Shown here: positions 2,977 to 18,746 of the stretch, in pieces
Layout of the letters: every line of letters begins with the position of its first letter
Position numbering within the stretch: position 1 is the stretch's first letter
From: Rubripirellula amarantea
GTDB taxonomy: Bacteria; Planctomycetota; Planctomycetia; Pirellulales; Pirellulaceae
Assembly: GCF_007859865.1 (NCBI RefSeq)
Contig: NZ_SJPI01000003.1
Span: forward strand, 806,001 to 870,000
DNA: 64,000 bases
Direction of reading: 5' to 3'
Made by a program: the position numbers and the translations under genes
The notes under the pieces: generated by a model
What the model saw: only the letters and a program-made list of their open reading frames with translations
Databases searched by the model: none
Told to the model about the DNA's origin: nothing

Positions 2977-3399
2977 AAGGGTCTTTGGGGTGTGAGAACG
3001 GCTGTTTTACCAGTCAATTGCAGTTCTAGCTTGATAGGAACCTAATTGAGTCGGGACCTATCTAAAAGTGTCAAATAGTGGGATTCGACCGGTTGGGCCG
3101 TTTTGGGTGGGAGGAATCCGATTTTACCGAATGGTTTTGCCAAAAATGACTGAGATTCCTAACAATCCTTTCTAAGGTGATTCGTGGCCTCCCAAGCTCG
3201 GCGCAAAGGCAAACGCGATCGCAACGCGACGTATTAGGCAGGCTAGCAACGCTCCCCCGACCGCTTCGCGAAGCTCGGCTGGGCTTTATGTGAGACCTAA
3301 TCAAAATAGACTATACCGATGGTAATTCTATGATTTTGGTATCTTGCATACGCTGCGTCTCGGCCCATCAGGCTCTCCTCATCGACTCTGCAATCATTC
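2977..3399. other. Divergent intergenic region
   Basis: 423 nt separate the minus-strand radical SAM gene from the plus-strand synthase, so promoters for both should lie here. The one ORF inside (3071-3304, minus) has no family resemblance and is Arg/Ser-rich, as antisense or random ORFs are. A perfect palindrome GCTTCGCGAAGC lies at 3263-3274 and could be an operator or hairpin. No convincing -35/-10 pair was identified. Confidence 0.5.
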
Positions 3400-6300
3400 A
3401 TGCCTGACCACACGACCTCTCGTTCTACTTTGCTCACTGGTGCCACTGGCATGGTGGGTTCGTACGTCATGGCAGAAATGCTACGACGCGGCATCCCAAT
3501 GGTTGTGACTGCTCGTTCCAAGGGTCGCCAATCCGCCGCCGAGCGTATCGAGAACATCCTGCAAGATTTTGAGCAAGCTTGGAATCAAACTCTGCCGCGT
3601 CCGCGAGTAGTTGAAGCCTCATTTGACCAGCCCGGCTTGGGTATCCCTCATCACGATCAACGTGCGATCGCTAATGACTGTGACCAAATCATCCATAGTG
3701 CAGCGAGCTTAAGCTTCGCTCCGGCGACCGAGAACGCTGACAACGAACCCTATCGAACGAACGTCGACGGCACGCGCCACCTAATCAAATTTTGTCAGCA
3801 GATTGGCATCAAACGTTGGCACCAAATTTCGACCGCCTACGTTTGCGGAACGCGATCAGGTACCGTTCGGGAAAACGAGAATGACGTCGGTCAATCCTTT
3901 GCGAATGACTACGAGCGAAGCAAATCAATTGCTGAGCAAATGGTCAACGATGCATTCAGAGAGTCCAACCTGACGATCTATCGGCCTTCGATTGTTATTG
4001 ATCGAACTGGCATCGCACCCGTATCAGGTGACCGTACCATCTATGGTGCGTTTTCCATGTACCAGATGTTGTCGGCGAAGTTTGGATTGCCTGATGATGG
4101 GGTTTGGTTCCGCAATCTTGGGTTCCGAGGCAACGAACGAAAGAACTTAGTCGACGTTGATTGGATCTCGCGTGCGGTTGCGACGATTGCAACGTCGCCA
4201 AAGTATCACGGTAAAACGTATCACCTGACGACACCAGACGGCACAGCAATCGAAACCCTCGATTCTGCGTTCCGCACGGCTACTCAAACATGGCTCGCAG
4301 GGCGACGTGTTCGATCAAACGGTTCCGCGAAGAAAGAAATATCCGCGGACCAGCAGAAAGAGATCGACCAAATGGCTGATCCATTTGTTCGCACCTTCTT
4401 ACCGTACTTCCGAGACGACCCCAAGTTTGACCGCACTCAGATTGATCGGGTGATCGCTGAAACCGATCTCGATCCAACGCCCTCCATAGCTCAAGATGAG
4501 CTATTGAGCATGATCCAGAATTGGTCGGCACCAGCGCCGCAGCGTCAGAAACTCAAACGACCGACATCACCCACCAATTCAACGCTGGCGAAACCATCCA
4601 TTCAAACCGTCAGCAGTGAACCCAACGATCCCGACGATGTGGTGATCTGCGGCTATTCGGTTCGCCTGCCCGGTAACGTCAACAATGTCGATGAGTTCGA
4701 GGAATTGTTGTTTCAAGGTCGTTCGGCGATCGACCTGATGCCTGCTGATCGCCTCGATCGTTCGTTGTACTTTGATAGTCGGCGTGGCGTTCCCGGCAAG
4801 ACGTATACGGAACTCGGTGGCTGCGTCGATCCGCTCCCGATCGACCAAAATATCCAACGCGAAATTGAAGCTCTCGGCGCCTACGATTTGACCCACCGTC
4901 AATTTGCACATGTCGCCACAGCCGCATTTCGGGCGGTTTTTGGGAATCGCAAGCTCCTTGAGGTGGACGGTCTGGACCCGCAACGCGGCGGCGTTTTTGT
5001 CGGTCACAGTGGAGGCACCGAACTTGGCGGTCCACTTGCCATGGCAACGATGGCCGAAACGGCGACTTGTTTGATCAATGAGACATCGGCTGCAGCTTCC
5101 CTTAGCATGCCGACGAAAGAACGCATGGTTCGTGAAGCGACCGAGGCAATCCGTCAATCGCGACCGCGTCGGCAAGACGATGGCGGACCTCACTTGAACG
5201 CCTATTCCGCTGCTTCGCTAGCCGCGAAACTTACCGGTATGCAGGGTCGCCGCGAAGTGATTGACGCTGCTTGCTCGTCTTCTCTTTTAGCCCTTCAGCA
5301 CGCAGCGTTGGCAATCGACGCCGATCATCTGGACTTGGCGATTGTCGGTGGAGCGACCTTTAATAACGTCGACAACTTAGCATTGTTTTCACAATCAGGA
5401 GCGTGCAGTGATTCGGGGTGCCACCCATTTGATCGTCGCGCCAGTGGATTGATCAGCAGCGAAGGCTATGTCGCGATCGTATTGGTGCGACGTCGTGTTG
5501 CGGAAGAATTGGGATTGCCGATTCACGCTGTGCTACGAGGGGTTGGCGTTGCTTCCGATGGAAAGGGCAAAGGATTATGGGCACCGCGCAGCGAGGGTCA
5601 ACAATTGGCGATGAAGCGGGCCAGAGTAAAACTCGATCGCGCTTTGCAAATCGACTATCTAGAATGCCACGCGACTAGCACGCAAGTTGGTGATGCCACT
5701 GAACTCGAAAGTTTGACGACGCTGCTGCGTGAAACCAATGACAACTCGTCGTCTCCTCAACCGCCCAACGAACAACTACCAATCGGCAGTGTCAAAAGCA
5801 ACCTTGGCCACCTGCTTGAAGCGGCTGGCTTGGTCGGGATGGTGAAAGTGTTGCTGTCGATGCGACGAGGACAAATTCCTCCGTCGATCAACTTTGCTGA
5901 ACCCACCGACCTGTATCAGTGGAACGATTCTCCCATCAAGATCGTGGACACCGTCTTGCCTTGGCCTAAGTCGCAATCGTCGCGAGTTGCCGGTGTCAAC
6001 GCTTTCGGCATTGGTGGACTCAATGCCCATGCGATCATCGAACAAGAAAACTCACCCGAGTCAGGCTCAAAACCGAAAGCGGTCGCGAAAACTCGGAAGG
6101 AATCACCACCGATTGCAATCGTTGGCCGCGGAGTGATCTTGCCGGGCGCCGATTCTATTGAAGCGTTTGGCGATTTGCTCGCAAGTCAAACGTGCCAAAT
6201 TACCGATCCGCCAGCAGATCGCTGGCTCGCCGATCCGTTTCATCCTGGCCAGATTCTCGGATGCAGCAACGATGGAAGTGAGTTTTCGACGCCTCATTGC

Positions 6301-9300
6301 CGAGGTGGTTACGTAACGAACTTTAAGTTTGACGCTCAGTCGTATCGAATTCCACCCAAGCTTGTGCGTAATGCCAATCCAGCGCAATTGATGTTGATTG
6401 AAGCGACTCGCCAAGCAATCGAGGAGTTCGACAACCATCAATGGACCGTTGACCGCAAACGCGTGGGAGTCGCGGTAGGAACGATCTTTGGCGGCGAGTT
6501 TAGCAATCAATTGCAAATCGGGCTGCGGCTCCCTGAAATCGGCAAGCACCTCGCCGAGGCAGCGGCCCGACACGGAATCGGTTCCCAAATCGTGTCCGAT
6601 TTGCTGCTGGAATACCGCGAATTGATTCTCGAGCGTTACCCGGCCCTACTGGATGAAACAGGTGGCTTCACAGCCAGCACGTTGGCATCAGCAATCGCAC
6701 GTGTATTCAATTTGATGGGTGGAGCCTACGCGGTGGACGCCGACGAGGCGTCGAGCGGTCTCGCATTGATGACAGCGATCGAGCGATTGAACACTCATGA
6801 TGTGGATGTCGCAATTTGCGGTGCAACGCATCGGGCGATGGACTTGGTGGCATTTGACCAGTTGTATCGAAAACACCAGTTAGTGGAGTCCGGCAGAGTC
6901 GAAGATCTGCCAAATAACGGTTCCCGAATCTTCCCGGGGGAGGGTGTGGCAAGCATGATATTGCAACGCCTCGACGATGCCATAACCCAGGGACGAAAGA
7001 TCTATGGCGTGATAGACGGCGTTAAAGAGAGTTGGTCAGACAATGTCCAACAATCAAGAAACGAGTCCTATCAACGTTCGATTAACCACGACAAAATATC
7101 TGGCTATCAGCTTGTTCGAACCATTGGACACCTCGGAGGTGCTCAGGGCTTAGTTCAAACGATTGCAGCCACCATTGCTGACCCTAACGAACTTAGTCAA
7201 CCGCGGGTCACATCCATTGAAGAGACCGCGGACGACGGCTACCAAATAAGCTACCGAGTGTCGCGCGGCACGAAGTCGCCGATCGCCGTGAACCATGACG
7301 CACAATCATCCTTTGATCCAATACCGGCTGTTTCCACTTTGATGCCCGCACGCGAATCCCAATCGAGTCATCCGATCACCAACGTGGAGAAAAAAGTTTC
7401 GTCTCGCATAGCGAGGGATCTGATCACGTTGCGTTTAGAAGCAGGGTCGCCCGAGCAGATGCAGGCGTCGCTTCAAAGCGTCATTAGCAGCGAACCTAAT
7501 CAATGGGTGGGCGAGGTATGTCACTTCAGCCATGATGCGACCGGCGTCATTCAAGCCGGTATCGTTGGCCAATCTTTTGATGAAGTTCGCGAAACTGCCA
7601 AGGCAATCCTTGAGGGTCCATTCGCAAGCTCAACCAGCAAAGCTTTGCCCCGTCATTGCGGTTGGATTCGTTTCCCAAGTTGCGGCTCAAGATCAGCCTG
7701 GCTGTTCCCCGGCCAAGGATCGCAGTATGCCGAGAAACCAGAACTGATTTGCAACAGCGAATTATCGCAAGGGTTCCTGGATGAGTTCGACGCACAATTG
7801 ACGGCAATGGGGTTAGAACCGGTCGGTCATCGGCTTGACGACCCCAGGAATGAGTTAGGACGTAACATTTGGTGGACTCAGCTTTGGGTCCTGGCCGTCG
7901 GAACGACGATGACTCAGTCGATGTTACAACGAGGTCATCGACCCGATGTTGTCCTCGGACACAGCTTTGGCGAATGCACCGCCGCATGGTGTGCCGGAGT
8001 TATGTCGACTCAACAAGCAATTCAGTTTGCGAAGTACCGCAGTGACGCGGTAATTACCGCAGCGGCTACCGGTGGTGAATTGTTGTCGGTACGTGCTGAA
8101 CCCGCTGCAATCGACGCTGCATTGAGCGGTCATGACATCACGTACTTCATCACCCACCACAATGCACCCGAGCAAACCGTAATCGCGGGTAGCAAGCCTC
8201 AGATTGCCAATGCGAAGGCGGTACTTGCCAGTGCCAACCTTGCTTCAATCGTCATCCCAGTGCCGGCAGCGTTTCATACACCTTCGATGAAGCCAGCGCA
8301 AGATTTGCTGCGAGTTCGATTCGGTTCACAAGTCGCCAAGCCACCTCGATTCGGGTTCTTGTCTGCGATCAGCAACCGCTACTTGGCTGAACCGCTCGAC
8401 ATTATCACTAATTTGATCGATCAACTTACTCGTCCAGTTTGTTTCACCAGTGCTGTCGAACGCTTGGCACACGATGGATGTGGATTGTTCATCGAAGTCG
8501 GTCCAAGCGACGTTCTGACGCGGTTGGCGAAGTCGACACTCACCAAAAACGCAATTTGCCTGTCTGCTGATGATCGCGGACGCCCTCTGCATTTGCGAAC
8601 GGCTTTAATTGACTTAGCCTGCGAAGCATTCACTGGATCAACCATACGCAGCGCAACATCGAACGATGTTCAACAGCCACCCAGCAGTGCAGCACTTACG
8701 TCCTCGCCTTCGAAGAATGGTTCTATCTTGGTTGACGGTGCACCATCATCCTCCGCTTCCAAGTTTGATGTCGTCGATGTCACACGTCGCAATCGTGGCG
8801 GCGACGAAACGATCGCGCCATCACCTGCGTCTCGCAACGGAAACGCTAACGGCGTCGTGCATCGAACCCCGAAACCCGGCGCTGCTCAACCCAACCGATA
8901 CCCAAGTGCCATTCGTACTACGAATGAAATCGCGAGCATTCCTGCGGTTGCTTCCAACCAGGCCAACCCTCAAGAAGTGAGAGCGACATCACCGGCATCA
9001 GTTGCTAAGGCTAGCGTAAGCAAACGCGAATCCGCCAAAGCATTCTTGTTTGACTTGGTCGTTGATTTGACCGGCTACGACCCTGAAATCATTGAGTTCG
9101 ACGCCGACCTCGAAGGTGAACTGGGTGTCGACAGCATCAAGAAAGCTCAATTGATTGGCGAAGTCGTTCAGTGGGGCAATCTGGAAATTGACATGCAGTC
9201 GATGCGGTTGGCGCAGTTTGCTTCGCTTGCGGATATCCTGGCTCTAGTTGGCGAAGACGACACAGCAGATAACGCAGTCAGCAGCGAGCTGAACACTCAT

Positions 9301-12246
9301 GTCGACGCACCGGCAAGCTCGAACGAAGATATTTCCGAATCGCTTCAACGAATGATCATCGACTTGGTGGTCGACCAGACGGGTTACGATGAAAGCATCA
9401 TCGACATGGATGCTGACCTGGAGGGTGAACTTGGCGTCGATTCTATTAAACGGGCACAATTGCTGGGTGAGCTTGAAACGCAGTACGAGTTGCAATCTAT
9501 CCGCGAACAGAATTTGCGGCTGTCTGATTTCCCGACCCTCGCGTCGATCCACGCGTATGTGCTTAAGCACTTGACCTCGGCCGATAGCGAAAAAGAGCAG
9601 CCCGCCAACCAAACCGCCAACCACAGCGGCGAAAAAAAAAAATCTCCTACCCTAACTGAGCAAGCGACCTATCAAACGGAGCCGGCACCGTTGAAGACGC
9701 CGGCCCAGGGTACTCACCGCTTCGTCCTGAGAACTTGCGAGGCTCCTCGGTACGAGGGCACGCCGAATCAGCCAAGGTTTAGCGGACCAGCATTGATTGT
9801 CGGGGACAATCCGATCGCTGACGCGATCATCAAGCGTTGGAAGATGACCGGATTGCCCTATCATCAAATCGGCTCTGATTTGAATTGGGACCAAATTGAT
9901 TCGATCATTCAATCGATTTGGAAAGACGGTGTATCCCAACATTTGTTTTTGACGACGCCCCACGACGCGGAAGCCAGTTGGTCGACGCTGGACGCTCGCG
10001 CATGGCAAGCAAGAAAAGTCGCAGCGCTTTCGATCCCGTATCGCGTGTGTCAATTATGGATGCAAAAAGTCATCGACGATGAATTGATGGATCAATCCTC
10101 GTTGGTCTCTTTTGTTCGCAATGGCGGCCAGTTTGGCTTTGATGCGGGCAGCGGCGAAAACCTAGCGAATCGTTCAGCCGAGTCGGGTGGAATTGCAGGA
10201 CTCACCAAAGCAATGCTGATTGAGGCTTGGATGCGTGGTTATCGTGACACTCCCATGCTGGTCGTCGACGGTGCAAAGAACGCTACCGCCGACGCAATCG
10301 TCGATGGCGGCTTCCGAGAACTTGCAGTGCCTTCCTACGACGAAGAAGTGATCGTGGATGGGCCTTTACGCCGAGCAACACGGGCCCAGTATCAACCGAT
10401 CCCTCAAGCAAACTTAGCCGCCGATCGCGTTCATTCGGTTAATATCACACCGGGTGGAGTCTGGCTTGTGGCGGGCGGCGGACGTGGCATCACCGCCATG
10501 ACGGCGATGGAATTAGCTCAGCGACACGGTCTTAAACTGCACTTGCTTGGTATGGCCAAAGCCGAACCGATCGATCCGCACACTCGCGAGCGAGCGCAAA
10601 TCGATCGGGCTCAACTGCGACGCGACACCATGAATCGCGTCCAGCAAAGCGGCGGCAACCCGGTCAAGCATTGGCGCAACTACGAAAAAGCGATCGAGAT
10701 TGACCAAACATTACAGCAATGTCGCGAGCGTGGTATTGAAGCAACTTATCACAGCGTGGATGTCTCCGACGCGCAAGACGTTGCCCAACTTGTTGCGAGT
10801 ATCCGCCGATCCGATGGTCCTATACGGGGTGTAATTCAGGGTGCTGGCTCCGGTCAAGACGCTCGATTTGATCGCAAACGTCCCGACAAAGTCCAACAAT
10901 GTTTAGATGCGAAGATTGACGGCTGTGTTTCCCTTGCCGCAGCCACGCAAGCTGACCCGCTTGAATGGTTTGTTGGCTTCGGTTCGATCAGCGGCCGGTT
11001 CGGCGCTAATGGGCACACCGATTACAGCGCCGCCAATGACATGCTTTCTAAGATAATTGGACGTCTTCGCGCCGAGCGTCCCCATACCAAATGCGTGACC
11101 TTTCATTGGCACGCGTGGGGTGATGTCGGGATGGCAACAAAACCAGAAGCCAAACTCGCGTTAGACATGATTGGCATGGAGTTCATGCCAGCTCAAGAGG
11201 GGTTGCAACACTTCCTGAACGAGATTGAAAACGGTGGCGATGATGCAGAAGTACTGATCACCGATCGTCGATACGTTCGCAAGTTTTTCCCCAACGAACA
11301 ACACACATCCACTGATGTTCTCGCCGCACCGGCAGCAATGCTAGATCCATCAGAGAATGGATGGTCCGATCACAACCTTCGCGATACGTCATTCAAGGTA
11401 ACCCTTGATCCCGAACGTGATCTATTCTTGAAAGAACACTTGGTTCAGGGACGACCGACATTGCCATTCGTGATGGCGATCGAAATGCTTAGCGAAGCCG
11501 CGTCGATTCATCAATCACTTTCATCAGGAAAGCCGCAACGTGTGAGTTCGCTACGTAACGTGCAAGCTATCCGGCCGTTGAAGTGCTTAACGGATGATGC
11601 GTTCGCAGTCGAATTGATCCCCGGCAATGATTCGCATTCTTGGAAATTGGTGAGTGACTTGCGTCGTCGCGACGGAAGGTTGGTGGAGGCTGCTCGCGAG
11701 CACTTTACCGCGAGTGTTGAATTAGAAGACGCGACCGCATGCAAACCTACGCGATACGATTCCGTGGACTTGCTTGACCACTTGCGAGTCGATGCAAAAG
11801 CGATCGAGTACATGCCCGAAGACGCGCCGGTATATCACGGCCCATCACTGCAGTGCCTTCGTGAGATCGAGTTTGCAATGGACGGCCAGATCCCGGTCGC
11901 GTTAGGAACGATCGTGGCCCCGAGTCCCGCACACCTTGCCGGTGAATCGCGGCCTTTAGTGGGTTGGACCATATCACCCGCGACGATGGATGCGGTCTTG
12001 TATGCCGCGGGAATGTTGGCATACCAAGTTGGCAATAGACCTAGTTTGCCAGTTCTCTTCGACGAAATTGAATTGGGACGACTACCCCATCCTGGCGAAC
12101 CGCTTCGCGTCGTTGTCCGCTGGGTAGACTCACTTGAAGAATCAACTAGCGAAATTGCTGGAGGACGTTTGTCAGCAGTCTTGGCCGGCCAAAATCGAGA
12201 TCTCATCTTGCGGCTCGATGGTTATCGAGTTGGATGGCTGAGTTAG
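3400..12246 (+). CDS. Giant iterative type I lipid/polyketide synthase: reductase-KS-KS(CLF)-AT-ACP-ACP-KR-DH
   Basis: 2948 residues. Domains: (1) 1-375, a thioester-reductase-like NAD(P) domain (LLTGATGMVGS at ~12-22; YERSK with Y171/K175). (2) KS1, ~412-877, with an intact triad: C625 in DAACSSSL, H757 in CHATST, H804 in SNLGHL. (3) KS2, ~903-1300, where the catalytic Cys is Glu1116 (VDADEASSG), the first His motif is absent and only GHLGG (H1244) remains, as in chain-length-factor or decarboxylating KS domains. (4) AT, ~1430-1720, with GQGSQ at 1438, GHSFGE (S1522) and AFHTP (H1626). (5) Two ACPs with LGVDSIK (S1912, S2015). (6) KR with GGGRGI at 2359 and YSAAN (Y2542). (7) DH hot-dog with H2680 and D2864. 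No ER or thioesterase domain is seen. The overall style resembles PUFA (Pfa) and heterocyst-glycolipid synthases, so the product is probably a long-chain lipid. It heads a tight operon. ATG 3400 is used; an A11 tract at 9632-9642 lies in the ACP2-KR linker. Confidence 0.9.
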   Translation: MPDHTTSRSTLLTGATGMVGSYVMAEMLRRGIPMVVTARSKGRQSAAERIENILQDFEQAWNQTLPRPRVVEASFDQPGLGIPHHDQRAIANDCDQIIHSAASLSFAPATENADNEPYRTNVDGTRHLIKFCQQIGIKRWHQISTAYVCGTRSGTVRENENDVGQSFANDYERSKSIAEQMVNDAFRESNLTIYRPSIVIDRTGIAPVSGDRTIYGAFSMYQMLSAKFGLPDDGVWFRNLGFRGNERKNLVDVDWISRAVATIATSPKYHGKTYHLTTPDGTAIETLDSAFRTATQTWLAGRRVRSNGSAKKEISADQQKEIDQMADPFVRTFLPYFRDDPKFDRTQIDRVIAETDLDPTPSIAQDELLSMIQNWSAPAPQRQKLKRPTSPTNSTLAKPSIQTVSSEPNDPDDVVICGYSVRLPGNVNNVDEFEELLFQGRSAIDLMPADRLDRSLYFDSRRGVPGKTYTELGGCVDPLPIDQNIQREIEALGAYDLTHRQFAHVATAAFRAVFGNRKLLEVDGLDPQRGGVFVGHSGGTELGGPLAMATMAETATCLINETSAAASLSMPTKERMVREATEAIRQSRPRRQDDGGPHLNAYSAASLAAKLTGMQGRREVIDAACSSSLLALQHAALAIDADHLDLAIVGGATFNNVDNLALFSQSGACSDSGCHPFDRRASGLISSEGYVAIVLVRRRVAEELGLPIHAVLRGVGVASDGKGKGLWAPRSEGQQLAMKRARVKLDRALQIDYLECHATSTQVGDATELESLTTLLRETNDNSSSPQPPNEQLPIGSVKSNLGHLLEAAGLVGMVKVLLSMRRGQIPPSINFAEPTDLYQWNDSPIKIVDTVLPWPKSQSSRVAGVNAFGIGGLNAHAIIEQENSPESGSKPKAVAKTRKESPPIAIVGRGVILPGADSIEAFGDLLASQTCQITDPPADRWLADPFHPGQILGCSNDGSEFSTPHCRGGYVTNFKFDAQSYRIPPKLVRNANPAQLMLIEATRQAIEEFDNHQWTVDRKRVGVAVGTIFGGEFSNQLQIGLRLPEIGKHLAEAAARHGIGSQIVSDLLLEYRELILERYPALLDETGGFTASTLASAIARVFNLMGGAYAVDADEASSGLALMTAIERLNTHDVDVAICGATHRAMDLVAFDQLYRKHQLVESGRVEDLPNNGSRIFPGEGVASMILQRLDDAITQGRKIYGVIDGVKESWSDNVQQSRNESYQRSINHDKISGYQLVRTIGHLGGAQGLVQTIAATIADPNELSQPRVTSIEETADDGYQISYRVSRGTKSPIAVNHDAQSSFDPIPAVSTLMPARESQSSHPITNVEKKVSSRIARDLITLRLEAGSPEQMQASLQSVISSEPNQWVGEVCHFSHDATGVIQAGIVGQSFDEVRETAKAILEGPFASSTSKALPRHCGWIRFPSCGSRSAWLFPGQGSQYAEKPELICNSELSQGFLDEFDAQLTAMGLEPVGHRLDDPRNELGRNIWWTQLWVLAVGTTMTQSMLQRGHRPDVVLGHSFGECTAAWCAGVMSTQQAIQFAKYRSDAVITAAATGGELLSVRAEPAAIDAALSGHDITYFITHHNAPEQTVIAGSKPQIANAKAVLASANLASIVIPVPAAFHTPSMKPAQDLLRVRFGSQVAKPPRFGFLSAISNRYLAEPLDIITNLIDQLTRPVCFTSAVERLAHDGCGLFIEVGPSDVLTRLAKSTLTKNAICLSADDRGRPLHLRTALIDLACEAFTGSTIRSATSNDVQQPPSSAALTSSPSKNGSILVDGAPSSSASKFDVVDVTRRNRGGDETIAPSPASRNGNANGVVHRTPKPGAAQPNRYPSAIRTTNEIASIPAVASNQANPQEVRATSPASVAKASVSKRESAKAFLFDLVVDLTGYDPEIIEFDADLEGELGVDSIKKAQLIGEVVQWGNLEIDMQSMRLAQFASLADILALVGEDDTADNAVSSELNTHVDAPASSNEDISESLQRMIIDLVVDQTGYDESIIDMDADLEGELGVDSIKRAQLLGELETQYELQSIREQNLRLSDFPTLASIHAYVLKHLTSADSEKEQPANQTANHSGEKKKSPTLTEQATYQTEPAPLKTPAQGTHRFVLRTCEAPRYEGTPNQPRFSGPALIVGDNPIADAIIKRWKMTGLPYHQIGSDLNWDQIDSIIQSIWKDGVSQHLFLTTPHDAEASWSTLDARAWQARKVAALSIPYRVCQLWMQKVIDDELMDQSSLVSFVRNGGQFGFDAGSGENLANRSAESGGIAGLTKAMLIEAWMRGYRDTPMLVVDGAKNATADAIVDGGFRELAVPSYDEEVIVDGPLRRATRAQYQPIPQANLAADRVHSVNITPGGVWLVAGGGRGITAMTAMELAQRHGLKLHLLGMAKAEPIDPHTRERAQIDRAQLRRDTMNRVQQSGGNPVKHWRNYEKAIEIDQTLQQCRERGIEATYHSVDVSDAQDVAQLVASIRRSDGPIRGVIQGAGSGQDARFDRKRPDKVQQCLDAKIDGCVSLAAATQADPLEWFVGFGSISGRFGANGHTDYSAANDMLSKIIGRLRAERPHTKCVTFHWHAWGDVGMATKPEAKLALDMIGMEFMPAQEGLQHFLNEIENGGDDAEVLITDRRYVRKFFPNEQHTSTDVLAAPAAMLDPSENGWSDHNLRDTSFKVTLDPERDLFLKEHLVQGRPTLPFVMAIEMLSEAASIHQSLSSGKPQRVSSLRNVQAIRPLKCLTDDAFAVELIPGNDSHSWKLVSDLRRRDGRLVEAAREHFTASVELEDATACKPTRYDSVDLLDHLRVDAKAIEYMPEDAPVYHGPSLQCLREIEFAMDGQIPVALGTIVAPSPAHLAGESRPLVGWTISPATMDAVLYAAGMLAYQVGNRPSLPVLFDEIELGRLPHPGEPLRVVVRWVDSLEESTSEIAGGRLSAVLAGQNRDLILRLDGYRVGWLS
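9632..9642 (+). other. A11 homopolymer in the ACP2-KR linker of the synthase
   Basis: GAA AAA AAA AAA TCT encodes EKKKS in a low-complexity linker. One extra A gives a TGA after five codons (ATC TCC TAC CCT AAC TGA). One A fewer gives TAA after AAT CTC CTA CCC. Slippage in either direction would therefore release a protein ending after the two ACPs. Whether this happens is unknown; Lys-rich linkers can carry A tracts by chance. Confidence 0.6.
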
Positions 12247-12250
12247 GCGA

Positions 12251-13381
12251 ATGTACCAAAGTGAAACCTCTCTGACCGCAGTCCTGCCGGCAAGTGACTA
12301 CGTTGACACGGCGGCATCCGAGCGCGACACGCACACCTTTCGCGAACAGAGTTGGCAACTTGTTGGCGTCACCGACATGCTTAAGAATGCTGGTGATTAT
12401 GTGGCCGACGAGCGAATGGGCGTTCCAATCCTGATACGTAATCACGATGGCCAACTGACAGCGTTGCACAACGTTTGCGCCCACCGCCATTGTCAATTGG
12501 TTGACCAAGGGTGTGGTCACGCCGAAGAACTTAAGTGTCCCTACCACGGATGGCGATATGGTGCCGACGGCCGGACCAGGAAATTGCCAGGCGCGTCAAA
12601 CTTCCCCAAGTTTGAGCGAGATGATTATCGGCTACCTCAATTTTCGCTAGAGCAGGTCGGTTCACTTGTGTTTGCTCACCTTGGCGGTCCGAACCGATCC
12701 ATGGACGACCAAGCTTCATGGAAGACCTTGTTTGCTGATCGAACAGATCCCAAGCGATGGCGATTCAGTTTCACCGATCAACTTGAATACCCGTGCGACT
12801 GGAAAATTGTGGTCGAAGGGTCGCTTGAAAGTTATCACCTGTCGGAAGTTCACGCCGAAACGTTTGGGAAGGATCCAGGTGAAGAAAACAGCGATCACGA
12901 ATTGCGAGACTGGGGAACCACGTTTTCTACTACGCTTCGGGATGACGCATTCTTGACACGTTTGGAAGAGCGCACGATACGGTACTTAACGGGTTCCTTT
13001 GACCCAACTTACCGGCATGTGCATGTTTTCCCCGGTGTGATGGCATCTTTGACGGATTCGCTGAGCTTAATCTACCAAGTGTATCCGACCGGTAATCAAA
13101 CCTGCGCGCTTCGGGTATTTGGATTCACGCCTCGGGTCACGTCTTCAAGTCCAATCAAGCGAAGCATCAGCGCGGCGCTGCGACGAACCGCCGAAGGCCT
13201 CGCTCGCAAAGTCCTAGATGAGGATGCAGCGATCTTTCCTAAGATTCAAGCCGGAATGGTCGCCGCTGCGAGTGTGCCCGAAACCGGTGGGCGAACCGTC
13301 AGCTCTCGAATTTTTGGTCGCTGTGAAGAGCGACTTCACGCGTTTCAAACCAATTGGGCCGAATTATCCCAGCCTTCCTGA
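12251..13381 (+). CDS. Rieske non-heme iron oxygenase, alpha-subunit type
   Basis: 376 residues, typical of ring-hydroxylating oxygenase large subunits. The Rieske [2Fe-2S] ligands are C76 and H78 (CAHRH) and C96 and H99 (CPYHGW). The catalytic domain contains WKIVVEGSLESYHLSEVH, the region that supplies the two His ligands of the mononuclear iron. The expected reaction is an O2- and electron-dependent hydroxylation or desaturation, with a separate reductase that is not in this window. The gene starts 4 nt after the synthase stop, so it is almost certainly co-transcribed, and the natural substrate would be the synthase product or a derivative. Not every Rieske oxygenase acts on aromatic rings; several act on lipid or sterol substrates, which fits here better. 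Confidence 0.88.
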   Translation: MYQSETSLTAVLPASDYVDTAASERDTHTFREQSWQLVGVTDMLKNAGDYVADERMGVPILIRNHDGQLTALHNVCAHRHCQLVDQGCGHAEELKCPYHGWRYGADGRTRKLPGASNFPKFERDDYRLPQFSLEQVGSLVFAHLGGPNRSMDDQASWKTLFADRTDPKRWRFSFTDQLEYPCDWKIVVEGSLESYHLSEVHAETFGKDPGEENSDHELRDWGTTFSTTLRDDAFLTRLEERTIRYLTGSFDPTYRHVHVFPGVMASLTDSLSLIYQVYPTGNQTCALRVFGFTPRVTSSSPIKRSISAALRRTAEGLARKVLDEDAAIFPKIQAGMVAAASVPETGGRTVSSRIFGRCEERLHAFQTNWAELSQPS

Positions 13382-13458
13382 CGCAACGAGCAGAATGATT
13401 GAATATGCTCTAGGGCAACCGACGTTCCACTGACACGACACAGACACATTCGGAAACG

Positions 13459-14226
13459 ATGAAAAACGATCTCCAAGGACGAACCGCATTGGTGACCGGC
13501 GCAAGCCGAGGGATTGGTCGCGCAATCGCGCTCGAACTGGCCCGCCAAGGCGCTCGCGTCGCCGTGAATTTCCTGAATTCACAAAGTGCCGCGGTTGAAG
13601 TAGCAAGGGCCATCGATCAAATGGGCGCCGACGTGATGTTGGTCAAAGCCGATATCTCATCAGCGGACGACATCGCTGCTATGGTTGCCGAGGTCGAACA
13701 TCAATTCGGTGCACTCGACACGATCGTTAGCAATGCTGCCGCGGGTGGGTTCCGTGATCTAGCGGACCTCACTCCGGTCAATTTTGAAGCCACCATTCGC
13801 AATAACTCCGCACCCGTGATTTGGTTAGCGCAAGCTGCCGCCAAAGCGTTGAAGTCCGCCAATCATCATGGCAAGATGGTTGCCGTTAGCAGTCACGGAT
13901 CTCGCTGGGCGGTGCCTCACTATGGAGCGATCGGTGCTTCCAAGGCAGCCCTGGAAAGTTTGATGCGCCACCTGGCGCTCGAACATGGGGACGATGGAGT
14001 GAATTTTAACTGTGTATTGCCGGGAATTATTGCTACCGACGCAATCGCCAGCATGCCGGGCGCCGATGCGTTGGTCGATGCTGCAACCGATCGCATGATG
14101 GTGGGCAAACGCAAGTTGTGCGAGCAAGACGTTGCCGAAGTAGTCGCGTTCCTATGTAGCGACGCTAGCGATTTAATCCAGGGGCAAACATTGATTGTCG
14201 ACGGTGGAGTTAGCATCCGTGCCTGA
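13459..14226 (+). CDS. SDR-family reductase with FabL-like enoyl-ACP-reductase active site
   Basis: 255 residues. The NAD(P)-binding motif TGASRGIG is near residue 15. NAAAGG and the C-terminal DLIQGQTLIVDGG are typical of FabG/FabL-like SDRs. The important detail is the active site: in HYGAIGASKAALE, Y155 and K162 are separated by six residues, the spacing of enoyl-ACP reductases (FabI, FabL), and the usual YxxxK tyrosine position is Ile. This favours enoyl reduction over ketoreduction. The gene sits between the Rieske oxygenase (78-nt gap) and the acyltransferase, whose GTG start overlaps its end by 8 nt. The upstream synthase has KR and DH but no ER domain, so this enzyme could supply that step in trans. 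A plain beta-ketoacyl reductase role is the alternative. Confidence 0.82.
   Translation: MKNDLQGRTALVTGASRGIGRAIALELARQGARVAVNFLNSQSAAVEVARAIDQMGADVMLVKADISSADDIAAMVAEVEHQFGALDTIVSNAAAGGFRDLADLTPVNFEATIRNNSAPVIWLAQAAAKALKSANHHGKMVAVSSHGSRWAVPHYGAIGASKAALESLMRHLALEHGDDGVNFNCVLPGIIATDAIASMPGADALVDAATDRMMVGKRKLCEQDVAEVVAFLCSDASDLIQGQTLIVDGGVSIRA
14206..14209 (+). promoter_or_regulatory. Shine-Dalgarno GGAG within the SDR gene
   Basis: GGAG lies 9 nt before GTG at 14219 and favours that start over the upstream TTG at 14195 for the acyltransferase. The two genes then overlap by 8 nt, which implies translational coupling. Confidence 0.5.
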
Positions 14227-15649
14227 TTCTGTCGCCGAATTGATTTCAGCGAAGAATTCCGAAGTCACATCTACCGTCGTTGAGCGTTACTTCGCGCGAC
14301 CGTGCCACGGTTCGGGAATGGTGTTCGATGGCGCGGTATCCGTCGAAGGCGAAATTGATCTTGAACGATTAACACAGTCGTGGCATTTGGTGGTTCAATT
14401 TCAACCGCGTCTGTTTGCAAGGCTGTCGGGCAAAGGAACGAAACAAAAATGGAACTTGCGTCCCTTTAGCGCAGACGAATGGAAGATCGAAATTGCCAAT
14501 GGATCAGCGTACAATCGTGATCAATTGATTGCCTCCATAGCGCCTCGACAAGGCATCGCTGGAAGGCTCGTGATTCATCAGGTCGAGACGAGCGAATGCG
14601 TTTCAAGACTGCATTTCTTCTTTCACCATTCGGCCATCGATGGCGTGGGTGCGATCCGAATCGTCACCGCTGTGCTTCGTCAGTATCAATCCGAATCGCT
14701 AGGCAGTCCGACCAAACGAATTGCAAATGATGCCGATACTGACGAGACATCGAAGCAATCCGATCGTCCAAGCGACAGCAATGCGAACGCAGCGGTTAAG
14801 CGACGTTTGATTAGCCTTCCCAACCCACGAAACGCCTGGGTAACCATTCGCGGGCACAACGCGATGCTGGATCGACATTCACACGACAGATTACCCAGTC
14901 TCGAATCGGACCATCTTCAACGATCGCTTGTTGAATCACACGGACCGTTCGTACGAACCACGCTAGGCCAGCACACCTCCTCGCGATTGCGACAGCATCT
15001 GCGTCGAAAGAGTGTCACTCTTAACGACTTCTCGGTCGCCATTACTCTTAAAGCGCTTAGCCAAATCATATCACCGAGGTGGGGCAGATACTTATGCGTG
15101 ATGAATCCTGTACAAACCCGTACTTGGAAACAACGCCGCGAAACGAACAACCATGTTGGCTTTGCTTTTGTCCGAAGGCGGCATGAAGAACTGGAATCGG
15201 TGGACCATTGCGTTGAAGGTGTACAGAAACAGTTGACCTATGTTCGAGAGCACGGAATCGCGCACGAACTAGCCGATGGCATGAAAATTCTTGAGTCCAT
15301 TCCGTTGGGATTTCCCACGGTTGAAAAGCTTCGCTGGTTTCTCCCTACTGCAAGCGTGACGTGTCTATCAAATTTGAAGTTTGGACGACGATTGGGACTG
15401 GAGTCCAGGACGAGCGATTTGAGCCCGCATGACCAGAAAAAAACGCATTTCATCGGAAATGCTAAGCTAAAAGACATCGAGTTCCTTGCCCCAATGCAGT
15501 CAAATGGGCAGCTAGCAATCACAATATGGGAAACAAGTGACAGTGTTTCGCTATCGTGGAGGCACGTCGGAACGGTCGCGGCGGCGGAGCGATGCTTGGC
15601 CTTGGCATCACTCTGGACGAGTCTGGTCGACGAGCAAATTTCAAAATGA
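14219..15649 (+). CDS. Condensation-domain-type acyltransferase (HHxxxDG)
   Basis: About 476 residues. The signature HHSAIDG (H136, H137, D141, G142) is the active-site motif of the CoA-dependent acyltransferase superfamily that includes NRPS condensation domains, PapA5-type acyltransferases and wax-ester synthases. The C-terminal half has SVTCLSNLKFGRR, which resembles the structural 'latch' region of condensation-like enzymes. As the last gene of the synthase operon it is a good candidate for releasing the ACP-bound chain by esterifying it to an alcohol or amine, since the synthase shows no thioesterase. GTG 14219 is chosen for its GGAG site; TTG 14195 would add eight residues. The acceptor cannot be predicted. 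The motif is clear but overall similarity to any named subfamily is not evident by eye. Confidence 0.8.
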   Translation: MPDSVAELISAKNSEVTSTVVERYFARPCHGSGMVFDGAVSVEGEIDLERLTQSWHLVVQFQPRLFARLSGKGTKQKWNLRPFSADEWKIEIANGSAYNRDQLIASIAPRQGIAGRLVIHQVETSECVSRLHFFFHHSAIDGVGAIRIVTAVLRQYQSESLGSPTKRIANDADTDETSKQSDRPSDSNANAAVKRRLISLPNPRNAWVTIRGHNAMLDRHSHDRLPSLESDHLQRSLVESHGPFVRTTLGQHTSSRLRQHLRRKSVTLNDFSVAITLKALSQIISPRWGRYLCVMNPVQTRTWKQRRETNNHVGFAFVRRRHEELESVDHCVEGVQKQLTYVREHGIAHELADGMKILESIPLGFPTVEKLRWFLPTASVTCLSNLKFGRRLGLESRTSDLSPHDQKKTHFIGNAKLKDIEFLAPMQSNGQLAITIWETSDSVSLSWRHVGTVAAAERCLALASLWTSLVDEQISK

Positions 15650-15697: not shown

Positions 15698-17095
15698 ATG
15701 AACAACCAAGCTACATTGAAAATGGCGACCCTCGGAATGTTTGCTCTTGTTGCCGGGATGTTGGGATGGTCCCTAATGCAACAAGAACAGTCCCATTCAA
15801 CCGCTCACGCCGATGCGACGTCTAGCCAATCCAAAGTGAAGCCCACTCCGATCAGTGATCTTAGCCTTGGTAATTTCGGCGATGGTATTTCGCAGTCCGA
15901 TGAAAGTGACACAAACAAGACCACCAAGGTCGATTCGCCCGAACTTATATTGAAGGTTGGGAAAATTGGTTCCACGCCTGATCGCCAAGAAGTAACCACG
16001 ATCAGCCATTTGCCTTACACAGGTACCGAAATTCGCCGGATCTACACCGCGTCTGCGGATCGCGCATGCCGCATGTTGGTACCAGGTTCGCCAGTGGTTC
16101 CCGCTCGCACCGGTGCTCGACCAGGACGAGTCGGTACTTATGGTCGAATCCCGACGTTCACCATCGGCTTGACATTAGGCAGCGAGGGAATCGACAAGTT
16201 ACCCACCGTCACTCGCACGCAGGTTGAGAAGTACTTGCGAAAGCACAGACTTTCCGTGCAGCCGATTTTGTTCCACGACGAATCGGGACACTTGTACTTC
16301 GGTACCGATTGCCAAACAGCATTCTTTGAACTTGATCGACCCGGGGTCACCGTGGATGCCGAGCCGATGATCGAAACCGCCGTTCAACGTTTCCGAGCCT
16401 TAGGTATCGTCGGCGATGGCTCGAGCGCCCGAATTAGTTCGCCCGGTGGCATGCAAGAAACCAATACAGTTCTCGGCCGAACGCTAGCCATGGCGTTCAC
16501 TTTCGAGAAAGCGGAAGGCCTGCTTGCGCTTACCTCCACCAAGCCTAAAGTCACGACTGAGCTCTTGCTGCTGCATTTGCCTGCCGAATCAACCGTCGAC
16601 AATCCTGACGTGCGAGTCTTTATTACTAGCGACGATCGACAGACACTGCATCGTTTGGACGTCAGCAACGAACGCCTCCATTCGCCCATCCCTACCATCT
16701 CGGCCGAGATTCGGTTCGCCAAAACGGTCCTGATGGGAATGTATCCCGCTGGGCCAATTGTGACCGGAATACGTTTTCGCAGCGAAGGCGTCGTTCCCAT
16801 GGAAGCCGTCTTGCAAATGACCCGTGCCAGCAAGGAAACGGGTGCTTCGCCGATGTCAGTGACTGAGATTCTTGATCAGTTCGGCGATTTGTCACAACAA
16901 CTACCGACTGAATTCACGGATAGAAGCATGCGTCAAAGCGGCCAACGTCCTTCGATGATCGAAAATCGACTGGATCGTTTGATGCAGCAGCGTAGCAATT
17001 CTCGGACGGGATCCCCTAATCAGTCCACCGGTAGTGAGGTCAATGAAGAGCGTTCGCCCACCAAGGTCAAAATGATGACCGGTCTGGGTAAGTAA
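15698..17095 (+). CDS. Membrane-anchored protein of unknown function
   Basis: 465 residues. Residues ~8-26 (KMATLGMFALVAGMLGWSL) form one N-terminal membrane anchor, followed by a Ser/Thr-rich low-complexity stretch (to ~70) and a folded region of ~330 residues with no motif I recognise. The C-terminal ~50 residues are again Ser/Pro/Gln-rich. The topology suggests a short cytoplasmic end and a periplasmic body. It starts 48 nt after the acyltransferase and could be the last gene of the synthase operon, but nothing in its sequence links it to lipid synthesis. Coding appears genuine: the ORF is long, frame-consistent, and its antisense ORFs are typical shadows. Confidence 0.75.
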   Translation: MNNQATLKMATLGMFALVAGMLGWSLMQQEQSHSTAHADATSSQSKVKPTPISDLSLGNFGDGISQSDESDTNKTTKVDSPELILKVGKIGSTPDRQEVTTISHLPYTGTEIRRIYTASADRACRMLVPGSPVVPARTGARPGRVGTYGRIPTFTIGLTLGSEGIDKLPTVTRTQVEKYLRKHRLSVQPILFHDESGHLYFGTDCQTAFFELDRPGVTVDAEPMIETAVQRFRALGIVGDGSSARISSPGGMQETNTVLGRTLAMAFTFEKAEGLLALTSTKPKVTTELLLLHLPAESTVDNPDVRVFITSDDRQTLHRLDVSNERLHSPIPTISAEIRFAKTVLMGMYPAGPIVTGIRFRSEGVVPMEAVLQMTRASKETGASPMSVTEILDQFGDLSQQLPTEFTDRSMRQSGQRPSMIENRLDRLMQQRSNSRTGSPNQSTGSEVNEERSPTKVKMMTGLGK

Positions 17096-17438
17096 GACTC
17101 GGTGGCGTGCTTTCCTTTAGCGGTTCACTTCATTGGTAGTATCGAGTCGCAAGTGCCATTAGTAACAGGAAGGTAGCGAACCGGAGCGACTAACCTTCCG
17201 CACACTCGCTGGCAAAGTTAACGATCTTGGCCGGCGCGGATTCTGGCCTGTGCTAATCTTCTTTGTGCGTGCTGATCTTTGTGCGTGCTGATCTGGGTGC
17301 GAGCCGATCTTTGTCTACGCTGGCATGAAGTCACCAAGAAAATGCGTTGACATCCCCACCCAAAACAGACAGAATGTCTGAACAGAGCCATCGCTACGAT
17401 CCCGCACTCGCGGTTCCGCCATGCCTGGGGAAGTTCAA
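17096..17438. other. Intergenic region with hairpin and 16-bp tandem repeats
   Basis: The ~340 nt between the unknown membrane protein and the DUF1559 gene contain an inverted repeat GGAAGGT (17168-17174)/ACCTTCC (17193-17199) without a T tract, and the tandem repeat described separately. The minus-strand ORF here (17218-17454) arises from the repeat and is not considered a gene. Confidence 0.5.
17261..17324. repeat. 16-bp tandem repeat, about four units
   Basis: CTTTGTGCGTGCTGAT occurs exactly twice back to back (17261-17276, 17277-17292), followed by degenerate units CTGGGTGCGAGCCGAT (17293-17308) and CTTTGTCTACGCTGGC (17309-17324). It lies about 115 nt before the DUF1559 gene. It may be a slippage-generated minisatellite or repeated protein-binding sites. 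Confidence 0.75.
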
Positions 17439-18746
17439 GTGAATCTACTGACACACAAACCGATTTCGCGAGCCACGATTGCGCACGCCGGTTTTACGAT
17501 CGTTGAACTGCTTGCCGTTGTCGTTGTGATTGGAATGTTGGTGGGCTTGCTGCTACCGGCCGTCCAGAGTGCCCGCGAAGGAGCACGCCGAATTTCGTGC
17601 AGTTCTAATTTGGCTCAAATCGGCCTTGCGGTCACCGGATATCACGTCACTTTCGATCAGTTCCCGGTTCAATTGTCTGGTACCGACGGCAGTGAGGTAT
17701 TGCACCACGACAACGATCGCAGGCTAAGCATCTTCGTTGCCATACTTCCATTCATAAGCCAAGAGCAATTTGCCGACGCGATCGCACAGCCGCTACCTAA
17801 GCCGTCCTACGTGGCGTCTGGTTGGAACGATGGGTACGAGATGAGCGACATGGGCGATATGGGCAATATGGATTTCGAGGATGCGAAAGACGACGTTCAA
17901 GATGAGTTCTGGGGTGCTGGTGGCCCTGAACCTTTTGTCCATCAGTACAGACCCTGGGTCACCGAAATTCCTTCGTTCCGTTGCCCAAGCGATCCCGGAT
18001 ATGGGAGTCCATCGTTAGGACGCATCAACTACGCAGCATGCATTGGCGATGGCATCGTCGGTTCATCCACCGGTGCAATGAAGCTAGTGAATGGTCGCTA
18101 TGTTCACGACGATGAATTGCAAAAGACGATTGACGTTTCCATGCGAGGGATCTTCGTTCCTCGACAGGTCACACGGTTGAAGGACATAGATGACGGCAGA
18201 TCACAAACGATCTTGCTTGGTGAAATTGCGACCGGATTGAGTGACGGGGATTGGCGGACAACCCCAGCGATTGCATCACTCGTCGACTCGTCGGCTTCGC
18301 TGCGCGACCAGCCCAACATGGCTGAGACCAGCCCACTTGTTGATCCGGAACGACCTAACTTCTGGAATGATGAAGTCCAGCTCGGTAAGTCTTTAAGCCA
18401 ACTGGGCCAGCAACGTGGATACCGATGGGCTGATGGAATGCCACTCTATACATCATTCCAAACGATTTCGGCTCCTAACTTCGGGATCATTCTTGATGAG
18501 AACCGCGATGACAGCGACGGAGTTTTGCCATCTAGCAGTCGTCATGAAGGCGGTGTTCACGTTTGCTTGGCTGATGGTGCCGTGCGTTTCGTAACGGACT
18601 CGATCGATGCGGGAAACCCATCCGCCAAAACCGTCTACCCCGGCAGTTATCCCGATGTTAATCCACCGAGCCCTTACGGTTTGTGGGGGGCACTGGGCAC
18701 GCGTGGGTCCAGCGAGCTAGCAGCCTCTCAATTCGAATCGCTGTAG
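17439..18746 (+). CDS. DUF1559 prepilin-like protein
   Basis: About 435 residues. The N-terminus has a type IV pilin/type II pseudopilin methylation and cleavage motif, GFTIVELLAV, followed by a hydrophobic helix (VVVIGMLVGLLLPAVQSARE) and RRISCSSNLAQIGLAVTGYH. The end carries the H-x8-DG-type motif (HEGGVHVCLADGAVRF) usual in planctomycete DUF1559 proteins. This family is greatly expanded in Planctomycetes; members are presumed to be processed by a prepilin peptidase and placed at the cell surface, and their role is not established. GTG 17439 is preferred because GGGGA lies about 8 nt upstream; ATG 17421 would add six residues. A Met/Asp-rich insertion (EMSDMGDMGNMDFED) lies near residue 140. 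Confidence 0.9.
   Translation: MNLLTHKPISRATIAHAGFTIVELLAVVVVIGMLVGLLLPAVQSAREGARRISCSSNLAQIGLAVTGYHVTFDQFPVQLSGTDGSEVLHHDNDRRLSIFVAILPFISQEQFADAIAQPLPKPSYVASGWNDGYEMSDMGDMGNMDFEDAKDDVQDEFWGAGGPEPFVHQYRPWVTEIPSFRCPSDPGYGSPSLGRINYAACIGDGIVGSSTGAMKLVNGRYVHDDELQKTIDVSMRGIFVPRQVTRLKDIDDGRSQTILLGEIATGLSDGDWRTTPAIASLVDSSASLRDQPNMAETSPLVDPERPNFWNDEVQLGKSLSQLGQQRGYRWADGMPLYTSFQTISAPNFGIILDENRDDSDGVLPSSSRHEGGVHVCLADGAVRFVTDSIDAGNPSAKTVYPGSYPDVNPPSPYGLWGALGTRGSSELAASQFESL

Follow-up and report, generated by a model that had tools for sequence, protein, structure and literature searches.

Several described systems resemble parts of a gene cluster that lies near one end of a 64,000-nt window from Rubripirellula amarantea (NZ_SJPI01000003.1, positions 806,001-870,000, forward strand; coordinates below are those of this window, the whole stretch of DNA that was analysed). 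Polyunsaturated fatty acid (PUFA) synthases, PfaA-D, combine a ketosynthase (KS) paired with a chain-length factor (CLF), an acyltransferase (AT), tandem acyl carrier proteins (ACPs), a ketoreductase (KR) and a dehydratase (DH). In the heterocyst-glycolipid (hgl) islands, PUFA-like synthase domains, including a CLF, and a thioester reductase (TR) lead to long-chain lipids (PMC11804610, PMC13291983), and zeamine synthases also recruit an aminotransferase and a TR (PMC13291983). A different kind of likeness is offered by the hopanoid C-2 methylase HpnP: B12-binding, radical S-adenosylmethionine (SAM) and DUF4070 domains are described for HpnP and for uncharacterised HpnP-like proteins, methyltransferase activity being described as confirmed within the HpnP clade only (PMC10697835).

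Among planctomycetes, R. baltica was earlier reported to have two monomodular polyketide synthases (PKSs) of unknown product (PMC4982196), and counts of type I PKS and hglE-KS genes in Pirellulaceae have been given (PMC13190842). According to a 2025 review, the one predicted cluster of a planctomycete that has been the object of a targeted study so far is that of a type III PKS (PMC12078418), so the type I synthases of the phylum are apparently still without a product. Our own literature survey, which included PMC2649909, PMC10896814, PMC9902471 and PMC13291983 and had most subscription journals outside its reach, found no product assigned to the present cluster in print, in keeping with an earlier supposition; nothing relevant was found in the literature on B12 radical SAM enzymes with branched lipids, or on planctomycete alcohol and hydroxy lipids.

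A preliminary description of the window had singled out four genes, for a synthase, a Rieske oxygenase, a short-chain dehydrogenase/reductase (SDR) and an acyltransferase, and read them as making an oxidised, esterified lipid. We find that the cluster is real, conserved and of the secondary-lipid synthase kind, that it has two unexpected tight partners (genes 1240-2976 and 15698-17095) which that description lacked, as it did the TR domain of the synthase, and that the earlier reading was partly wrong. Present in some aquatic planctomycetes, the cluster is likely to direct both the assembly and the later modification of a long-chain lipid alcohol. With a probability that we put slightly above even, and from the genes alone, it would encode a secondary-lipid pathway of the PUFA/hgl type leading to a long-chain alcohol or aldehyde that carries a radical-modified carbon and is oxygenated or acylated in some species.

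The synthase and its relatives

An open reading frame (ORF) check of the window places the four genes on the plus strand at 3400-12246 (synthase), 12251-13381 (Rieske oxygenase), 13459-14226 (SDR) and 14195-15649 (acyltransferase). The intergenic gaps are 4, 77 and -8 nt, the last counted from a GTG start at 14219 (-32 nt from a TTG at 14195); the genes, strand and outer gaps of the preliminary description thus stand, its middle gap of 78 nt being one too many. A scan of named genomes returned orthologues (63-69%) in Rhodopirellula europaea, Rubripirellula obstinata, Aporhodopirellula aestuarii, Neorhodopirellula pilleata and Rhodopirellula solitaria. Because the same four-gene order recurs in A. 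aestuarii (L047) and N. pilleata (L048), the arrangement in the window is not a matter of chance; in R. europaea (L045) the contig stops after the SDR gene.

The synthase is an iterative-type protein of 2948 residues with the order TR-KS-CLF-AT-ACP-ACP-KR-DH, in which Pfam and NCBIfam recognise ketoacyl-synthase and PP-binding matches (two stretches each), AT, KR and PS-DH; its motifs were taken from a 26-row alignment, several rows of which are truncated. The TR domain (NAD_binding_4; residues 12-259, 3433-4176) has the MxaA reductase domain (4u7w, E=5.7e-24) as its best solved relative and carries GxxGxxG and YxxxK in all 17 rows that cover them. In the KS (residues 412-893, 4633-6078) the Cys-His-His triad is intact in 21/21 covering rows, and in the second, CLF-like KS (6112-7389) the cysteine position is held by Glu or Asp in all 20 window-type rows, as expected for a chain-length factor; the PDB entry 6riw (ORF10) spans both in the alignment (residues 599-1209). 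There follow the AT (residues 1434-1716, 7699-8547), the motif LEGELGVDSIKKA of the first ACP (residues 1904-1916, 9109-9147), the second ACP (residues 1986-2050, 9355-9549), the KR (residues 2353-2574, 10456-11121) and the DH (PKS_DH_N and PS-DH; residues 2661-2944, 11380-12231). The tandem ACPs carry LGVDSIK, and AT, ACP and KR motifs are retained in the rows covering them; in the DH motif HxxxGxxxxP the glycine is substituted in G601, G411, G405 and G460. The synthase frame is split into two ORFs in G538 (L156) and G595 (L171), by assembly error or a real break. As a separate observation, the window-type synthase of G546 (L183:7246-16884) has 3212 residues, with its DH match interrupted by about 600 nt.

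With a KS-CLF pair, tandem ACPs, KR and DH all present, the protein is a PUFA/secondary-lipid synthase in the wide sense, and the preliminary description was right to compare it with PUFA and heterocyst-glycolipid synthases. It is not of the PfaA type: TIGR02813 scores it at 549 bits against a cut-off of 1010.1, which other synthases of the family likewise miss (G537 545.4, G411 636.2, G339 929.5) and control synthases of other types pass (L097 1201.4; L113, from a planctomycete, 1580.2; L117 1621.3). Whereas the PUFA systems share its KS, AT, tandem ACPs, KR, DH and KS-CLF pair, the window has KS-CLF-AT-ACP-KR-DH in a single polypeptide, and no PfaD passes its cut-off in the genome (best 21.2 bits against 449.25), as had been proposed. 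Like the hgl islands, the cluster pairs a thioester reductase and a CLF with a lipid synthase; unlike them, as described in a figure legend, it has no glycosyltransferase, ABC transporter or phosphopantetheinyl transferase (PPTase) among its genes, and its TR is fused at the N-terminus. The legend names genes for these three and for an enoyl reductase. A plasmid collection searched for named references gave three weak matches, none of them annotated, and the collections tried held no named HglE. Both PPTases of the genome lie outside the cluster.

The N-terminal TR points to reductive release, and therefore to an alcohol or aldehyde. G369, which belongs to a different family, has a stand-alone reductase gene immediately next to the start of its synthase, and for this reason the reductase in the window looks like a fusion of such neighbours.

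A FastTree phylogeny of 168 KS and CLF domains from the sampled loci (midpoint-rooted, without named HglE or PfaC, and with some genomes doubled as named and unnamed copies) groups the KS domains of 28 window-type sequences, 38 of 39 others from related loci, L113 (Singulisphaera) and L107 (Opitutus) in one clade of 68 tips (support 1.0). The related-locus tips come mostly from planctomycetes, with a few metagenome-assembled genomes (MAGs) labelled otherwise, and the 28 window-type KS domains form a clade of their own (support 0.998). One MAG labelled Acidobacteria (L064:3944-17878) carries related synthase, reductase, SDR, Rieske and condensation-type genes, by transfer or through mislabelling.

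Across the family, 56 of 241 genomes are synthase-positive by a KR-DH profile search (E<=1e-80), among them 2 of the 22 in the window's own genus. This patchiness would suit a secreted, specialised product, for instance a zeamine-like amino-lipid or a polyene, with a role in defence or signalling and not in the cell envelope. So would the related operon of G339. Five other genomes of the family (G205, G327, G333, G339, G381) have synthase, Rieske and SDR genes with a separate thioester reductase, and the operon of G339 adds a PPTase, a class III aminotransferase, an AMP-ligase and a condensation enzyme; the absence of a PPTase noted in the preliminary description therefore holds for the cluster in the window and fails as a trait of the wider family. 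Zeamine synthases likewise recruit an aminotransferase and a TR, as noted above. Zeamine- and fabclavine-type systems share the lipid synthase and thioester reductase with the window, and the aminotransferase too with G339. The window differs from them, however, in having no PfaD, and among its scanned genes (1240 to 23562) there is no aminotransferase, ligase or nonribosomal peptide synthetase (NRPS) module; a simple polyene is further argued against by the conserved enoyl reductase acting in trans. We regard a secreted product of this kind as rather unlikely. In G339 itself (L021:6957-19648, L022:1-7367) the full set comprises a KS-CLF-AT-ACP3-KR-KR-DH synthase, PPTase, Rieske, SDR, thioester reductase, aminotransferase, AMP-ligase and condensation enzyme, and by its sequences looks like an N-acyl amino-lipid pathway; most of this set is found by tblastn in G423 (L193) and in G496 (L155), where no Rieske gene was seen.

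Two partners that follow the synthase

Divergent from the synthase, on the minus strand at 1240-2976 and across a 423-nt intergenic region (2977-3399), lies a gene for an HpnP-like protein with a CxxxCxxC motif, whose B12-binding, radical SAM and DUF4070 domains each exceed their Pfam cut-offs. On the other side, 48 nt past the acyltransferase gene on the plus strand, 15698-17095 encodes an uncharacterised protein picked out by its co-occurrence with the synthase. It is predicted to have an N-terminal membrane helix and a soluble domain, and 53 columns are invariant among 13 sequences. Pfam gives no match for the window's own copy and weak ones among the 13 sequences (FluMu_N in 4 of 13, best 0.0029; BatA in one, 0.22); a search of the PDB with its predicted model (pLDDT 69.6) returned no fold match at E<=0.001.

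Both genes were sought in the 241 genomes at thresholds fixed, like that for the synthase, before the search (E<=1e-150 for radical SAM orthologues, E<=1e-10 for the 15698-17095 gene), with at most five or six initial candidates scored per genome. The radical SAM orthologue occurs in 22 genomes and the 15698-17095 gene in 20, every one synthase-positive; neither occurs in any of the 185 synthase-negative genomes (Fisher tests of co-occurrence, 2.6e-16 and 9.8e-15). By genus, of which there are 68, the synthase is found in 19, the radical SAM gene in seven and the other gene in five. Gene neighbourhoods were covered for 46 of the 56 synthase-positive genomes (the window, five and forty; G121, G418, G419, G421, G424, G426, G469, G479, G482 and G580 were left out), and 20 of them, the window included, form the window-type set. 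The 15698-17095 gene matches this set exactly (20/20 against 0/221): it is directly downstream in 15 genomes, whereas in G535, G540, G543 and G546 it lies some 3-5 kb past the start of the synthase, and in G538 it sits at the end of a contig other than that of the synthase. In 16 of the 20 the radical SAM gene adjoins the synthase in divergent orientation; in G608 it is on a separate contig.

For every partner, pairwise identities rise and fall with those of the synthase (r 0.90-0.96, reached in 0 of 999 permutations, 13-19 taxa; 0.94 for the radical SAM protein and 0.96 for the 15698-17095 protein), a correlation to which shared organismal descent contributes. The radical SAM protein is the best conserved of six proteins compared, with a mean pairwise identity of 0.80 against 0.56 for the synthase.

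Descent or linkage alone might explain these associations, the two genes acting in other pathways. The divergent transcription of the radical SAM gene fits such an explanation, as does its place on another contig in G608 and, among the five carriers with another synthase type, in G399, G406, G410 and G411. These four separations also count against the pathway we favour, and so do several further observations: 34 of the 56 synthase-positive genomes are without a radical SAM orthologue at threshold; the gene was not found in window-type G540, G546 and G598 (the contig of G598 begins inside the synthase); a loose search of the window's genus gave, beside an 87% homologue in the other synthase-positive species and 25-30% matches in seven others, a 42% homologue in one synthase-negative genome; and the Fisher p-values are overstated because the genomes are not independent. 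On the other hand, the complete absence of both genes from synthase-negative genomes at these thresholds, and their spread over seven and five genera, speak against mere accompaniment; in the fifth carrier, G460, the radical SAM gene is found downstream of the synthase and in its orientation, so that orientation shifts while linkage persists. We therefore consider accompaniment alone unlikely.

A further point against our reading concerns the radical SAM enzyme itself: NCBIfam ranks a hypothetical family first for it, with HpnR at 59.5 of 650 bits and all matches far under their cut-offs; relatives in the PDB are distant (9ccb, 4.5e-12; AprD4, 1.5e-5). HpnP has the same domain set, but the window gene sits beside a lipid synthase, and a role as hopanoid methylase was rejected: squalene-hopene cyclase exceeds its cut-off in one of the 22 carrier genomes (G410) and reaches 83.2 of 431.1 bits in the window's genome, which makes a hopanoid substrate unlikely for carriers other than G410. 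The regions around the gene in G399 and G411 (L226, L227) were compared with the window's gene set and their ORFs listed; neither the neighbours in G406 (L228) nor those of the 42% homologue in G575 (L224) pointed to a substrate. By analogy, we infer that the enzyme performs C-methylation. Elsewhere in the genus, G558 has an operon-like run (L225:2167-10206) with two B12 radical SAM homologues (both by tblastn, one by Pfam), a GNAT protein, GH3, a SnoaL-like protein and a Rieske protein, apparently another pathway.

Reductase, oxygenase and acyltransferase

The SDR gene adjoins the synthase in all 20 window-type genomes. Its product was called FabL-like in the preliminary description, and FabL is indeed both its best NCBIfam model, among 235 families, and its best PDB relative (3oic, 169.4 bits; runner-up 128.4). 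Y-x6-K spacing marks enoyl reductases of the FabI/FabL type, and it is kept in all 72 homologous SDR matches that cover the site; from its sequence the protein is a probable enoyl reductase acting in trans. SDRs are versatile, and the score of 238.1 bits on NCBIfam FabL (PRK08063) falls under the cut-off of 328, which tells against our reading and would suit a ketoreductase, or an alcohol dehydrogenase that works on the product after its release, with a chain left unsaturated or polyhydroxylated. The 41-bit lead of FabL in the PDB and the uniform spacing argue otherwise, and we think this assignment quite improbable.

The remaining two genes are accessory. Gene 12251-13381 was correctly taken for a Rieske non-haem iron oxygenase: Pfam finds Rieske and ring-hydroxylase alpha catalytic domains, the CxH...CxxH cluster and the 2-His-1-Asp iron site are retained in 18/18 rows (the catalytic motifs here and in the synthase being given their usual meanings), and the closest PDB relative is carnitine monooxygenase (2e-17). 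Four Rieske homologues of 29-32% without such a synthase nearby (G152, G216, G307, G369) count against our reading.

The fourth gene, whose start is TTG 14195 or GTG 14219, has no Pfam match and a weak one to the NCBIfam wax-ester synthase/DGAT family TIGR02946 (24.9 bits against 309.95). HHxxxDG is present in 14/14 window-type rows and in 18 of 19 rows overall, a family profile finds NRPS condensation domains, PapA5 (7.5e-11) and WSD (3.9e-6) in the PDB, and an AlphaFold model (pLDDT 81.1) adopts a condensation fold with 233 PDB matches at E<=0.001. Motif, profile and predicted fold agree in placing it in the condensation/PapA acyltransferase superfamily, as first described. It shares motif and fold with PapA5 and the wax-ester synthases, but differs from them in its low TIGR02946 score, in evolving fast and in not lying beside the synthase in five genomes. 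A search of the phylum sample with this protein alone found 3 of 392 genomes, few because it diverges fast.

The four genes are not a conserved unit, as had been supposed: their complete order occurs in 8 of 19 assessable window-type genomes. The Rieske gene adjoins the synthase in 14 of 20 (not in G540, G546, G556, G595, G598 or G600) and the acyltransferase gene in 14 of 19 (not in G536, G537, G539, G541 or G547; in G538 the contig ends there), adjacency to the synthase being what was scored. Since both are often not beside the synthase, an oxidised, esterified lipid would fit some members only. The radical SAM gene and gene 15698-17095 keep closer company with the synthase than either. Beyond the cluster, 325 nt past its end, lies a DUF1559 pseudopilin-like protein of an ordinary family with an H-X9-DG C-terminus (17421-18746); a flanking amino-acid permease is not on the cluster's contig in the other synthase-positive congener.

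Proposed pathway and its meaning

From these families, residues and associations the following reaction order, substrates and product can be proposed. The synthase would extend malonyl units iteratively on its tandem ACPs, with the KS-CLF pair setting chain length and KR and DH processing each unit, and the FabL-like SDR would take in trans the enoyl reductase role that PfaD has in the classical pathways, so that the chain ends up saturated or partly unsaturated. The fused thioester reductase would then free the chain as an aldehyde or primary alcohol. The B12 radical SAM enzyme would act on an unactivated carbon; C-methylation, the reaction of its relative HpnP on hopanoids, is the likeliest modification. 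In some species the Rieske enzyme would oxygenate the chain and the HHxxxDG enzyme acylate a hydroxyl; the membrane-anchored 15698-17095 protein may, at a guess, serve localisation or export.

More tentatively, the product could be a new class of planctomycete lipid, a very-long-chain alcohol, free or acylated, whose methyl branches or rings are introduced into an unactivated chain by the B12 radical SAM enzyme. If so, an HpnP-like enzyme would act on something other than a hopanoid, and radical carbon modification would be part of a PUFA-type pathway. The locus is present in cultured, named strains, and it gives an HpnP-like enzyme a genomic context and hence a testable substrate; the lipid itself would be a possible sedimentary biomarker of this bacterial family.

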